DNA from: an uncultured Clostridia bacterium
Lineage (GTDB): Bacteria; Bacillota; Clostridia; Christensenellales; Borkfalkiaceae
Direction: 5' to 3'
DNA: 64,000 bases
NCBI GenBank assembly: GCA_947087265.1
Contig: CAMUBY010000001.1
Location: 186,001-250,000 of the forward strand
Part shown: one piece after another, positions 41,538-44,913 of the stretch
How positions within the stretch are numbered: position 1 is the first letter of the stretch
How the letters are laid out: each line of letters opens with the position of its first letter
Made by a program: the position numbers and the translations under genes
Notes under the pieces: model-generated
Told to the model about the DNA's origin: nothing
Seen by the model: only the letters and a program-made list of their open reading frames with translations
Databases searched by the model: none

Positions 41538-42704
41538 ATGCTCGGAAATTTTCAATACTACAATCCCACAAAACTTTACTTCGGAAAGGATGCGTTGGAA
41601 GGATTAGGCATCGAACTTTCCCGCTACGGCAAAAACGTGCTTTTGGTGTACGGCGGCGGTTCGGTTAAGAAAAACGGTATTTACGATAAGGTTGTAAAAA
41701 TTCTCAAACAGCACGGCAAAACCGTTTTCGAGGACGGCGGCGTTATGCCCAACCCGACGGTTGAAAAGGTGCGCGAGGGGTGCGAACGCGCAAGAAACGC
41801 GCACGCCGATTTGATTCTTGCCGTCGGCGGCGGTTCGGTTTGCGATTACGCCAAGGCGGTATCCGTTTCGGAGCATTGCAAGGAAGATTTCTGGCAGAAG
41901 TACTTTATCGATTTCGACGAGCCGACCTGCGAAATCGTGCCCGTCGGCTGCGTACTCACCATGGTCGGCACGGGCAGTGAAATGAACGGCGGTTCGGTGA
42001 TTACCAATCACGGACAGAAACTGAAAATCGGGCACGTGTTCGGCGACAGCGTTTTCCCGAAGTTCTCCGTTCTCAATCCCGAATTTACGTACACCGTGCC
42101 GCGGTATCAGATGATTTCGGGAATTTACGATATTATGTCGCACATTCTCGAACAGTATTTTTCGGGCACGGACGACAACACTTCCGATTATATTATGGAA
42201 GGGCTGTTGCGTTCGCTCATTCACAGCGCGGAGATTGCCGTGAAAAATCCCGAAGATTACGAGGCGAGAAGCAACATCATGTGGATTGCAACCTGGGCGT
42301 TGAATACGCTTGTGGCTAAGGGAAAGACGACCGACTGGATGGTGCATATGCTCGGTCAGGCGGTTGCCGCGCATACCGATGCAACGCACGGCATGACGCT
42401 TGCCGCCGTTTCGTTGCCCTATTACCGCCACATTCTGCCCTACGGCGTGCAGAAATTTGCGCGCTATGCCGTGAACGTCTGGGGCGTTTGCGCGGAAGGA
42501 AAGACGGAGGAACAAACCGCGCTCGAAGGGCTTGCCGCCATGGAAGAATGGATGAAGAAAATCGGGCTTGTCATGAATCTGAAAGAGTTGGGCGCGAACA
42601 AAGAAATGCTCGACGGTATCGTAAAGAGTACGGTTGTTATGACGGGCGGATATAAAGTTTTAAGCGCGCAGGAAATTTACGGGATTTTAGAAAAAAGTTT
42701 ATAA
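41538..42704 (+). CDS. Iron-containing alcohol dehydrogenase (butanol dehydrogenase-like)
   Basis: The 388-residue enzyme belongs to the group III, iron-dependent alcohol dehydrogenases and is closest in pattern to clostridial NADPH butanol dehydrogenases: ENFQYYNPT-like start (NFQYYNPTKLYFG), GGGSVKKNGIYD, VGGGSVCDYAKAV for NAD(P), and metal ligands in YDIMSHILEQYF and a later HGMTLA segment. It reduces aldehydes to alcohols to regenerate NAD(P)+ in fermentation. It lies 11 bases after mrp with AAGGAG, so they may be co-transcribed. Confidence 0.92.
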   Translation: MLGNFQYYNPTKLYFGKDALEGLGIELSRYGKNVLLVYGGGSVKKNGIYDKVVKILKQHGKTVFEDGGVMPNPTVEKVREGCERARNAHADLILAVGGGSVCDYAKAVSVSEHCKEDFWQKYFIDFDEPTCEIVPVGCVLTMVGTGSEMNGGSVITNHGQKLKIGHVFGDSVFPKFSVLNPEFTYTVPRYQMISGIYDIMSHILEQYFSGTDDNTSDYIMEGLLRSLIHSAEIAVKNPEDYEARSNIMWIATWALNTLVAKGKTTDWMVHMLGQAVAAHTDATHGMTLAAVSLPYYRHILPYGVQKFARYAVNVWGVCAEGKTEEQTALEGLAAMEEWMKKIGLVMNLKELGANKEMLDGIVKSTVVMTGGYKVLSAQEIYGILEKSL

Positions 42705-42722: not shown

Positions 42723-42758
42723 AAAAGCGGAGCATTACCGCAGTTCCCATAGGGATTT
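42723..42758 (+). repeat. Left 36-bp inverted repeat
   Basis: Begins AAAAGCGGAGCA and ends TTCCCATAGGGATTT. It matches the reverse complement of 43647-43682 at 30 of 36 positions; the differences cluster in a six-base stretch after GGAGCA. Confidence 0.75.
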
Positions 42759-42778
42759 GACCACGTAAGAATAAGTAT

Positions 42779-42830
42779 AGCGCACTATACCTTGCAAGCA
42801 AGGCAGTGCGCTTATGTTTTACTTTTTAAT
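42779..42830 (+). terminator. Strong hairpin and T-rich tail after the alcohol dehydrogenase gene
   Basis: Outer stem AGCGCACT (42779-42786) with AGTGCGCT (42805-42812), inner stem CCTTGC (42790-42795) with GCAAGG (42798-42803), then TTTTACTTTTT. It lies inside the left end of the cassette and could end transcription from mrp and the dehydrogenase. Confidence 0.7.
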
Positions 42831-42846
42831 TTGTTTGTGGTATAAT
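42818..42846 (+). promoter_or_regulatory. Putative promoter of the cassette gene
   Basis: TTTACT (42818-42823), 17 bases, TATAAT (42841-42846), followed at normal distance by GCGGAG and the ATG at 42883. Confidence 0.7.
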
Positions 42847-42882
42847 ACCTCAAAGATAAACAGTAATTTAGCGGAGTAAATC

Positions 42883-43593
42883 ATGATTGCAAGAATAAGT
42901 ACAAAAAACGGATTTTATAATTCAATTGTATTTGCAATTTATTATAAAGGATGGTCATCAAAAGTTTTAATTTTTAATGAGGATTATACTGCGCTGAAAT
43001 TTGTTAAAATATGGATACCCAAAAGAAATATTTATATTTATAATGCAGACGAAGAGGGGTGGATTTCAAAGGGAAAGATTGAAGGCTATGAATGGGTACT
43101 TAAAAATATAAGTAAAAAATTCTTTCAAACTAAAATAAACGTATCTGCTATTTTTGATAAATGCAAAACTTTGCAGGCAACCGTTAAAGATTATGAATGG
43201 TTTGATATTAAGAACGAATCCGATGTGAAAGGTTTAATGTACGCTTCTGTCGATTTTCACGATTCTTATGTTAAAAAAATTTATAAAGACGGTGCAAAAC
43301 AATACATTCACTTTGACACCACTTGGGGTTGTGAAATATTATTTGAACTTGACGGCAATATAGAAACTAACTTGTTTGAAGATTATGGGCATATTGTAAT
43401 AGACAACGTATTTTTTGATATCATCGATTCCACAGTATTTTTTGAAAATGACTTAATTTATTGGGTTGACGATGATTCAATTAAATCAATTTCTAAAATA
43501 AGGGAATCCCAAGCACACTATTTTTGCGCCAAAAATGTAAAATGGAAATTAATCATTAGCGACCCCAAAATTTGGGGCGAAATGAAATCCTAA
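42883..43593 (+). CDS. AT-rich orphan gene of unknown function
   Basis: The 236-residue product is rich in Ile, Lys, Tyr, Phe and Asn and uses AT-ending codons, unlike every neighbour. No signal peptide, membrane segment or known domain is visible. VDFHDSYVKKIYKDGAKQYI in the middle resembles the FHDS segments seen in several uncharacterised immunity-like proteins, a weak hint only. A CCCCAAA/TTTGGGG palindrome lies in the last codons (43563-43577). The gene has its own promoter and is boxed in by inverted repeats, so recent acquisition is likely. Confidence 0.7.
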   Translation: MIARISTKNGFYNSIVFAIYYKGWSSKVLIFNEDYTALKFVKIWIPKRNIYIYNADEEGWISKGKIEGYEWVLKNISKKFFQTKINVSAIFDKCKTLQATVKDYEWFDIKNESDVKGLMYASVDFHDSYVKKIYKDGAKQYIHFDTTWGCEILFELDGNIETNLFEDYGHIVIDNVFFDIIDSTVFFENDLIYWVDDDSIKSISKIRESQAHYFCAKNVKWKLIISDPKIWGEMKS

Positions 43594-43606
43594 ATTATAA
43601 TTTAAC

Positions 43607-43667
43607 GGGCAATTTAAAAGAGCGAAGACAAATTCTTCGCTCTTTTAAATCTCTATGGGAATTGCCC
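43607..43667. terminator. Long nested hairpin after the orphan gene
   Basis: A perfect 17-bp stem (43612-43628 with 43634-43650), loop CAAAT; GGGCAATT (43607-43614) can also pair with AATTGCCC (43660-43667). The right arm runs into the right inverted repeat. It can act as a transcription terminator on either strand. Confidence 0.75.
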
Positions 43668-43682
43668 TTTTGCTCCGCTTTT
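43647..43682 (-). repeat. Right 36-bp inverted repeat
   Basis: Read on the minus strand it begins AAAAGCGGAGCA and ends TTCCCATAGAGATTT, matching the left repeat at 30 of 36 positions. The minus-strand YegP-domain gene ends 18 bases further right. Confidence 0.75.
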
Positions 43683-43700: not shown

Positions 43701-44834
43701 TTACAATTCTTTATCCGCTTCTTCGATTTCCGCAATTTCCGCAAAGTGCTTGGTCGATTCGATTGCGTTCTCGCAGCGCGTGCGCGTTTTGTAGTCTGCG
43801 CCGAGCGCCATCAGCCGTCCGCTTGCGTTGAGCAGTTTGAAAATGTAATCGCCCGTCTTGGTTTGAATGATGTCGAATTTGCCGTTCTGGATATTTTTCT
43901 TATACGTTTCGATGCCGCTTCTCGCGCTCGACAGGGAGGAGTAAATTCCGCTCGTGAGCATGAGCTCGCCGTTGGATGCGTACAACTTGAACAAATACCG
44001 TTTGTCTTCCGTTTTTTCAATCACCCATTTCCCGCTGTAAGGCGAGGCGGGGTTGGTTTTCTTCGCCGCGGGTTTTGCGGGCTTTTCCGCGTCTTTCTTC
44101 GGAGCGGGCTTTGCGGCAGGTTTCGCGGTTGCTTTTTGAGGTTCCGCTTTCTTTGCCGCCGGTTTCTTGGCGGGTTCCGCCGCAGGTTTTGCCGCACTCT
44201 TTTTCGCGGGTTCGGAAGGTTTTGTTTCTTTCTGAGCCGCCGTTTTGGGAGCGGATTTCTCCGTTTCTTTTTTCGCCGCAGGCTTTTTTGCGGCGGTCTT
44301 GGTCGTCTTTTCTTCCGGTTTCTTTTCCGTCGGCTCGGATTTTTCCGCCGCTTTTACGGGTTCGGTCTTTTTCTTCGGTTTCGCCGCCGCTTTCTTTTTC
44401 GGCGCTTCCGCAGGTTTTTCTTCGGGTTCGTCGTCTTTTATTTCAAAGATAGTGCCCGTAAAATCGGGTTGCGTCGAATTTGTTTGTTCGGTTTCTTCAA
44501 CAACTTCGGGCTCCGTCTCTTCCACAATCGGGGGAATTTCCTGCTGCGGTTCGGGAAGCGAGTATACGGTATTATCCGCAGGCTGTTCTTCGGGTTCCGC
44601 CTCTTGCGCCGTTTCTGCGGGGAACGTTCCGTCTTCTTCGATTTCCCAAAGTTCGTCGTTTTGAGCAACCTGAACGTAAACCTCGGAATTTTTTTGCTTT
44701 TTATGCTTGACCGAAAGTACAATCATCGCAATGACGATTGCAATAATCAGAAGAATCACTACGCCGAGAATAATGGTGAGAACAAGGTTGTCTTTGAGGT
44801 ACGTCAGAAAATTCGATTCCAATAAATTCAGCAT
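43701..44834 (-). CDS. Membrane-anchored protein with low-complexity linker and two YegP (DUF1508) domains
   Basis: The 377-residue protein has one N-terminal membrane helix (LVLTIILGVVILLIIAIVIA), an acidic stretch, then about 150 residues of Lys/Ala/Pro/Glu repeats (KPAAKK units), and two C-terminal YegP repeats: GKWVIEKTEDKRYLFKLYAS with NGELMLTSGIYSS, and GKFDIIQTKTGDYIFKLLNA with SGRLMALGADYKT. YegP domains are small beta folds of unclear function. The linker resembles wall-spanning or nucleic-acid-binding tails; side of the membrane is unknown. The ATG at 44834 follows AGGAG. Confidence 0.83.
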   Translation of the reverse strand: MLNLLESNFLTYLKDNLVLTIILGVVILLIIAIVIAMIVLSVKHKKQKNSEVYVQVAQNDELWEIEEDGTFPAETAQEAEPEEQPADNTVYSLPEPQQEIPPIVEETEPEVVEETEQTNSTQPDFTGTIFEIKDDEPEEKPAEAPKKKAAAKPKKKTEPVKAAEKSEPTEKKPEEKTTKTAAKKPAAKKETEKSAPKTAAQKETKPSEPAKKSAAKPAAEPAKKPAAKKAEPQKATAKPAAKPAPKKDAEKPAKPAAKKTNPASPYSGKWVIEKTEDKRYLFKLYASNGELMLTSGIYSSLSSARSGIETYKKNIQNGKFDIIQTKTGDYIFKLLNASGRLMALGADYKTRTRCENAIESTKHFAEIAEIEEADKEL

Positions 44835-44884
44835 AGATTCTCCTGCGTTGCCGAAAACGGCAAAAATAGAAATTATTTTATACA

Positions 44885-44913
44885 ATTATACCACGCATAG
44901 CGCGCGCTGTCAA
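44885..44913 (-). promoter_or_regulatory. Promoter of the YegP-domain gene
   Basis: On the minus strand TTGACA (44908-44913), 17 bases, TATAAT (44885-44890), a perfect consensus. It stands back to back with the promoter of the flavoprotein gene, with only four bases between the two -35 boxes. Confidence 0.9.

Follow-up and report, generated by a model that had tools for sequence, protein, structure and literature searches.

Between the 3' ends of two convergent genes of the window (the whole stretch of 64,000 nucleotides of DNA that was analysed) lies a short AT-rich cassette, with a G+C content of 31% versus 50.5% for the window. A preliminary description of this DNA proposed that the cassette is a non-autonomous mobile unit carrying a cargo gene, perhaps with an immunity or defence function. 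The question that the locus raises is what this cassette is, where exactly it ends, and by what route it could move. Here, we have addressed the question by comparing the locus with related genomes, most of which are metagenome assemblies. The whole case for mobility is comparative, and the G+C content, the promoter and the hairpins, taken by themselves, would be compatible with an ordinary gene gained by horizontal transfer as well. The comparison indicates that the window unit is very probably derived from Tn4451-like integrative mobilizable elements (IMEs), as a non-autonomous form that carries cargo.

Structure of the cassette and its boundaries

The 36-bp inverted ends that had been reported are present, at 42723-42758 and 43647-43682: the two sites are complementary at 30 of 36 nt (83%), with a spacing of 888 nt. 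The end pattern occurs at just these two sites in the window, where none is expected (100 shuffles), and at these two sites alone across the 1.43-Mb assembly, with no occurrence of the reversed control pattern. The flanking genes, coding for an Fe-alcohol dehydrogenase (ending at 42704) and a DUF1508 protein (ending at 43701), are convergent as had been stated, and each of them ends 18 bp from the 36-bp repeat; in the latter gene (43701-44885), a long Lys/Ala/Pro-rich linker separates the N-terminal part from the DUF1508 domains.

The interior also agrees with the preliminary description, which had announced a single gene of foreign composition with its own promoter and no transposase: ORF and domain searches of the unit have returned one gene (42883-43593), with no recombinase domain and no transposase, and a sigma-70-type promoter is seen in the sequence (TTTACT at 42818-42823, a spacer of 17 bp, TATAAT at 42841-42846). 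The hairpins located inward of both ends, at 42779-42812 and 43612-43650, are supported by folding against shuffled sequences; the left hairpin, which probably serves as a terminator, insulating the element against the gene upstream, is beaten by 1 of 200 shuffles on the minus strand and by 9 of 200 on the plus strand.

The extent of the element has been revised. The paired 36-bp ends are real, but their outermost 12 bp, AAAAGCGGAGCA on the left and TGCTCCGCTTTT on the right, form the arms of a host intrinsic terminator, and each 36-bp repeat is in part an element end (an att half-site) and in part host terminator. Because these outer 12 bp form the stem of the host terminator, the element proper is 42735-43670, not 42723-43682, situated within the loop of this terminator and having a TT at each border. 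The window unit is a mobile unit of 934 bp, inserted in the loop of a host terminator, that brings one gene together with a promoter and a terminator of its own; its features, along with the evidence for each, are the following (HP denotes the hairpin-and-promoter type of copy, introduced below):

42723-42734, no strand: left arm of the host intrinsic terminator, AAAAGCGGAGCA, outside the element; 12 of 12 positions complementary to 43671-43682, and an intact terminator at the same locus in genome G019.
42735-42736, no strand: left core dinucleotide TT; TT at both ends, with the exact 2-bp core seen for another copy when the filled L274/L275 are set against the empty L276.
42737-42758, plus strand: left end, one half of the recombinase attachment site, consensus TTACCGTAgTTCCCATAGGGAATTT (from 29 copies); found across the order, with no match to the reversed control.
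42779-42812, plus strand: left hairpin AGCGCACTATACCTTGCAAGCAAGGCAGTGCGCT; folding, and kept in relatives with compensating changes.
42818-42846, plus strand: promoter TTTACT-N17-TATAAT; sequence, and kept in the head of other HP-type copies.
42855-42876, plus strand: 5' cargo junction and ribosome-binding leader GATAAACAGTAATTTAGCGGAG (P5); motif core in 23 of 27 elements shorter than 3 kb, with cargo identity beginning here.
42883-43593, plus strand: cargo gene, 236 aa, of no known family; no Pfam, NCBIfam or PADLOC match, and a 72% identical homologue in G091.
43591-43604, plus strand: 3' cargo junction TAAATTATAATTTA (P3-like), overlapping the stop codon; a diverged copy of TAAATTTCAATTTA with 4 mismatches in 18 nt.
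43612-43650, plus strand: right hairpin, the cargo terminator (ATTTAAAAGAGCGAAGA ... TCTTCGCTCTTTTAAAT); z about -6.
43648-43668, minus strand: right end, the other half of the attachment site, AATCTCTATGGGAATTGCCCT, consensus aATTCcCTATGGGAAgTGcgC; inverted pair and delimited copies.
43669-43670, no strand: right core dinucleotide TT; supported by the exact empty site of a different copy.
43671-43682, no strand: right arm of the host terminator, TGCTCCGCTTTT, outside the element; inverted pair and empty locus of the sister genome.

Empty sites and the target of insertion

The comparison with empty sites, which had been recommended as a check, has yielded two of them. The two flanking genes are also neighbours in the sister genome G019 (78% and 65% identity), where an intact intrinsic terminator, AAAAAAAGCGGAGCAAATTGCTCCGCTTTTTGCG, parts them; this empty site differs by a few loop bases because the species have diverged. 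For a second copy, the empty site is exact: the locus is filled in genomes G328 and G495 (L274/L275), where it reads AAACTCTCGGCA-TT-ACCG...GTATGCT-TT-TGTCGGGAG, and empty in the close relative G347 (L276, with a flank gene 96% identical), where it reads AAACTCTCGGCA-TT-TGTCGGGAG. This is a conservative insertion with a 2-bp core, as made by serine recombinases; the TT arrangement at the window unit is the same.

The flanks of 29 copies, joined in silico, fold at -17.3 kcal/mol on average, compared with -9.2 when the flanks are mispaired; the observed mean is not reached in any of 10,000 permutations. A T-run of at least four bases is located in the right flank of 28 copies and an A-run in the left flank of 26, and 16 copies lie between convergent ORFs according to crude ORF calls; the flanks of two copies (L209 and L197) have no clear pairing. 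Since the joined flanks fold as terminators, the family inserts into terminator loops, with the palindromic target being consistent with a symmetric attB.

The wider family

The search of related genomes for the end sequence, another of the recommended checks, has found the left end in 37 of 396 genomes of the order, spread over 17 genera, and the reversed control pattern in none; the pairs of ends enclose mostly different cargo. In a scan with one genome per species, 25 contigs match the exact end pattern, nearly all of them from Clostridia/Firmicutes metagenome bins, together with the isolate Pumilibacter muris. These counts are lower bounds, with contigs often breaking at the elements and copies with diverged ends being missed. 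Outside these genomes, IMG/VR has no match to the element end or head, phage records have no match to the head and plasmids have one trivial match; Rfam has no credible match for the window unit.

The 29 copies that are delimited at both ends measure from 547 bp to 15.4 kb (median 1,008 bp), with 27 of them being at most 2.5 kb long, and they fall into two end types that have the outermost sequence in common: the HP type (13 copies, including the window unit) and the T2 type (16 copies). A tail of the same type as the right hairpin of the window unit follows the cargo in most HP-type copies. The left end of the window copy is well conserved, and its right end carries a few substitutions. The cargo mostly differs from copy to copy: GNAT acetyltransferases (five by Pfam), pyridoxamine-oxidase-like (PNPOx), CAAX protease, YdeI/OmdA, Sel1 repeat, DUF3788 and HTH proteins, a metallo-beta-lactamase fold, a chromate transporter, an alpha/beta hydrolase and several unknowns.

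Several individual copies and related loci have also been observed. A 7.1-kb copy (L144, G154:C1, about 213.4-220.6 kb) holds an apparently complete phosphate-uptake operon and its two-component regulator, identified by eye, next to a truncated recombinase, which suggests that whole operons can ride in such carriers. Locus L211 (G219:C6) has a left end followed by large methyltransferase-like and helicase-like genes, possibly a restriction-modification system, with no right end found. The gene carried by a copy with a T2-type right end, L030:224-1417 (G015:C17), the left end of which is lost at the contig edge, encodes a 318-aa tyrosine recombinase. A third carrier type, represented by L271:5200-6000 (G154:C7) and L314 (G328:C23), has ends like AAATCCCTATAACAGATACCC and a TT core; a similar end adjoins a serine recombinase of a different clade.

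The recombinase of the larger copies and the proposed movement

A transposase with the same ends had been suggested as a further thing to look for. The larger copies do encode an enzyme within these ends, although it is a serine recombinase and not a transposase of the DDE kind: several T2-type copies (including those in G262, G446 and G276) contain, 95-148 bp inside the common end, the gene of a large serine recombinase of 555-562 aa with Resolvase, Recombinase, zinc-ribbon and DUF4368 domains, the best PDB match of which is TnpX of Tn4451 (E = 7e-33). One of these copies (G262 C10) is complete at both ends, with a length of 15.4 kb and the terminator arms AAAAGAATCGGG / CCCGATTCTTTT; in some larger copies, a MobV-type relaxase candidate, recognised by eye, is located 3' of the recombinase, as in Tn4451. 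Recombinases that are about 57% identical end in a related but different sequence, TAATCCCTATG..., resembling the ends of the third carrier type (G154). With two empty sites, 28 other delimited copies and these recombinase-bearing copies, the proposal of a non-autonomous mobile unit with cargo is borne out.

The window genome itself (a 98%-complete assembly) contains distant serine recombinases only, of at most 30% identity, and no close homologue; movement of the window copy would therefore depend on an enzyme provided in trans, and the copy may by now be stranded. A large serine recombinase from other elements probably moves the window family, and the two element ends, when joined, form a palindrome, as expected of attP.

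The recurring ends, the position of the insertions in terminator loops, a core of 2 bp, the empty sites, the variety of the cargo and the recombinase genes beside the same end are all observed in the sequences compared; what we infer is a movement of the small cassettes by this recombinase through a circular intermediate. In the circle, the two element ends would meet as the halves of one attachment site, which we reconstruct as ...TTCCCTATGGGAAGTGCGCT-TT-ACCGTAGTTCCCATAGGGAA..., with the junction of the circle predicted as ...GGGAAGTGCGCT-TT-ACCGTAGTTCCC... A larger element bounded by the same ends would provide, in trans, a large serine recombinase of the DUF4368 type, and this enzyme would join the TT core of the circle to a TT in a host intrinsic terminator, at its tip or close to it; the palindrome of this terminator resembles a symmetric attB. 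With the terminator tip as the target, the insertion would fall between genes, so that no reading frame would be disrupted. The host terminator would be split, but the element would come with a promoter of its own and a hairpin on either side, so that the expression of the cargo and, by presumed restoration, the termination of the host genes would probably both be preserved.

The cargo gene of the window unit

The immunity or defence role that had been suggested for the cargo has found no support: the 236-aa protein has no Pfam, NCBIfam or PADLOC match and no significant PHROG or PDB match, and no viral relatives have been found. Homologues occur in 7 of 100 relatives; the closest, in G091, a member of a different family, is 72% identical and adjoins a worn but recognisable version of the head of the window unit, without clear ends. 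The comparison of the two genes (dN 0.15, dS about 1.1) shows that the protein is maintained by purifying selection. The single-sequence AlphaFold model, with a mean pLDDT of 36.5, is too poor to be used.

Proposed exchange of cargo between carriers

Two motifs recur at the borders of the cargo in the 27 elements shorter than 3 kb: the core of GATAAACAGTAATTTAGCGGAG (P5) is located 5' of the cargo in 23 of them, and TAAATTTCAATTTA (P3) is located 3' of the cargo in 18. Of 24 genomes examined, 15 contain exact copies of the P3 motif (at most 11 in one genome), and the reversed control pattern has no such copies; multi-gene elements (L214, L264, L256, L257 and L266) have the motif between their genes, in some cases as a P5/P3 hybrid. 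An identical cargo protein, encoded by near-identical DNA, is found in an HP carrier in G286 and in a T2 carrier in G255, i.e. in two genera, with the identity starting at the P5 leader motif; the same gene is also present in G227 and, with the third carrier type, in G154. Other cargo genes recur in a similar way, with breaks at the P5/P3 motifs. This pattern suggests a second, integron-like layer, where single genes would be swapped in and out of the P5-P3 slot by a putative site-specific enzyme.

Among the tyrosine recombinases of 14 genomes, none passes the TIGR02249 cut-off for an IntI-type integrase, the best scores on this model being up to about 70 bits versus the 265 required. The scores of about 70 bits, above those of the other recombinases, belong to related XerC-like recombinases (L339, L340 and L341, three in G328; L342 in G019; L343 in G255), and a fragment of a XerC-like recombinase lies beside a P5 motif in L344 (G273). 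As candidates for the exchange enzyme, the XerC-like recombinases of G019, G255 and G328 and the tyrosine recombinase of the G015 copy have been set aside, having no consistent association with P5/P3 sites. We give an even chance to the broader proposal of a two-layer transfer in gut Clostridia, with terminator-targeting serine-recombination carriers of at least three types and single-gene exchange at a TAAA-N4-AATTTA site by a recombinase independent of IntI/attC, i.e. an integron analogue.

Alternative explanations

The preliminary description had itself named the finding that would count against a mobile unit: the 36-bp sequence being a dispersed 3'-end repeat, found singly, with its pairing round a gene being coincidental. 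The repeat could, on this reading, also be a terminator family: the left hairpin does resemble ordinary bidirectional terminators, terminators are common between convergent genes, and an ordinary bidirectional terminator without element ends (L345:2372, G000:C4) has nearly the same loop; the hairpin motif, which also matches such terminators, has accordingly been dropped as a sole marker of the family. The end sequence, on the other hand, is present in the window genome as this pair alone, and pairs elsewhere bound units of mostly different cargo; paired ends in 29 copies, together with two empty sites that lack the whole unit, refute the dispersed repeat, which we regard as next to inconceivable. 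That the unit is a classical integron gene cassette, or the relic of an integron array, is extremely improbable: the single small cargo genes (GNATs, PNPOx, YdeI-like), the small arrays and the motif-based exchange look integron-like, but neither the outer ends nor the targeting of terminators agrees with attC, the inner P3 site has no GTTRRRY/RYYYAAC boxes, the integrase scan described above has returned no IntI, and elements of the window family carry promoters. The terminal inverted repeats round a passenger gene, with no enzyme gene in the unit, would also suit a mobile insertion cassette or MITE-like IS derivative moved by a DDE transposase; we consider this very unlikely, given a flanking duplication of only the 2-bp TT core, a serine recombinase within the ends of the larger copies, joined ends that form an attP-like palindrome, and no DDE transposase noticed when the ORFs of the copies were read (rather than systematically scanned).

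A once mobile and now fixed genomic island, with its cargo kept by the host, has the same origin as the Tn4451-like derivative and differs from it on present activity only. The lack of a cognate recombinase in the 98%-complete assembly, the single copy, the purifying selection on the cargo and the homologue in G091 that sits without clear ends all speak for fixation, while the well-conserved left end, and a recombinase that could arrive with an incoming element, speak against it; we hold fixation to be a serious possibility, at somewhat less than an even chance.

Relation to known systems

The Tn4451-like derivative that we favour is best understood next to the serine-recombinase IMEs such as Tn4451 and Tn4453, which encode TnpX and a MobV relaxase, have a 2-bp core and use many integration sites (PMC5704250). 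The larger copies, with their TnpX-like recombinase, MobV-type relaxase candidates seen by eye and 2-bp core, are similar to these; the core common to junctions and empty site is exact for L274/L275 versus L276. The window unit differs in being shorter than 1 kb, with no recombinase or relaxase (the large serine recombinase is encoded by G262, G446 and G276 copies), and its target is specifically the loop of an intrinsic terminator. Cis-mobilizable elements (CIMEs), described as decayed remnants, keep attL and attR without integration and transfer genes (PMC5704250). The window unit likewise has both att ends and no such genes, and its ends are common to the complete, putatively functional copy of G262 C10; its family, in contrast, is large, and its members combine a standard set of promoter, slot and terminator with cargo that can be interchanged.

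Multi-targeting large serine recombinases commonly carry DUF4368, and in one example the core is TT and the target flanks are rich in T and A (Durrant et al. 2022, PMC10083194). The DUF4368 domain, TT core and T/A-rich flanks are shared by our family; the word "terminator" is absent from that paper, whereas the T/A flanks are here the A- and T-tracts of terminators, and small cassettes share the ends. Terminator loops would explain the T/A-rich edges of the sites of multi-targeting recombinases, examined here for the window family alone: terminators are proposed as natural symmetric attB-like sites, a preference that bears on the use of such recombinases in genome engineering. IME_Rho_tet, a serine-recombinase IME of gut Bacillota, has terminal inverted repeats and a boundary 81-90 bp past the recombinase stop, carries tet genes and often inserts in MAFF2 ORFs (PMC12904643); our family resembles it in the recombinase, the terminal inverted repeats and the boundary near the recombinase stop, but no family of minimal one-gene cassettes is described there.

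The family in gut Clostridia is apparently unreported: in the open-access PMC literature, with most subscription papers and preprints lying outside the search, we have found no report of such cassettes or of serine recombinases that target terminator loops. One-gene units that use terminators as safe harbours would explain the spread of small accessory genes among poorly studied gut Clostridia without visible transposases.

Mobile insertion cassettes consist of an enzyme-free passenger gene between terminal inverted repeats, which are IS ends served by DDE transposases. The window unit has the same layout, while its family uses serine-recombinase att half-sites, and the TT core is found with no longer duplication. 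Integron gene cassettes are one-gene units that form small arrays and are exchanged downstream of a promoter. In these respects, and in the types of cargo, the window family is similar, with the same cassette occurring in different contexts, with exact junctions and in arrays; it differs in that no IntI scores above the cut-off, the slot rides on a serine-recombinase element, and the attC boxes GTTRRRY / RYYYAAC are absent from the P3 consensus GATAAATTTCAATTTATC, as judged from the sequences rather than with an attC model. If confirmed, the P5/P3 exchange of cargo would amount to a system that resembles integrons but lies outside the integron family as known. In its workings, the window unit has something of both the mobile insertion cassette and the integron cassette, although it lacks defining features of each; the definition that suits it best is that of a cis-mobilizable derivative of a Tn4451-like mobilizable element.
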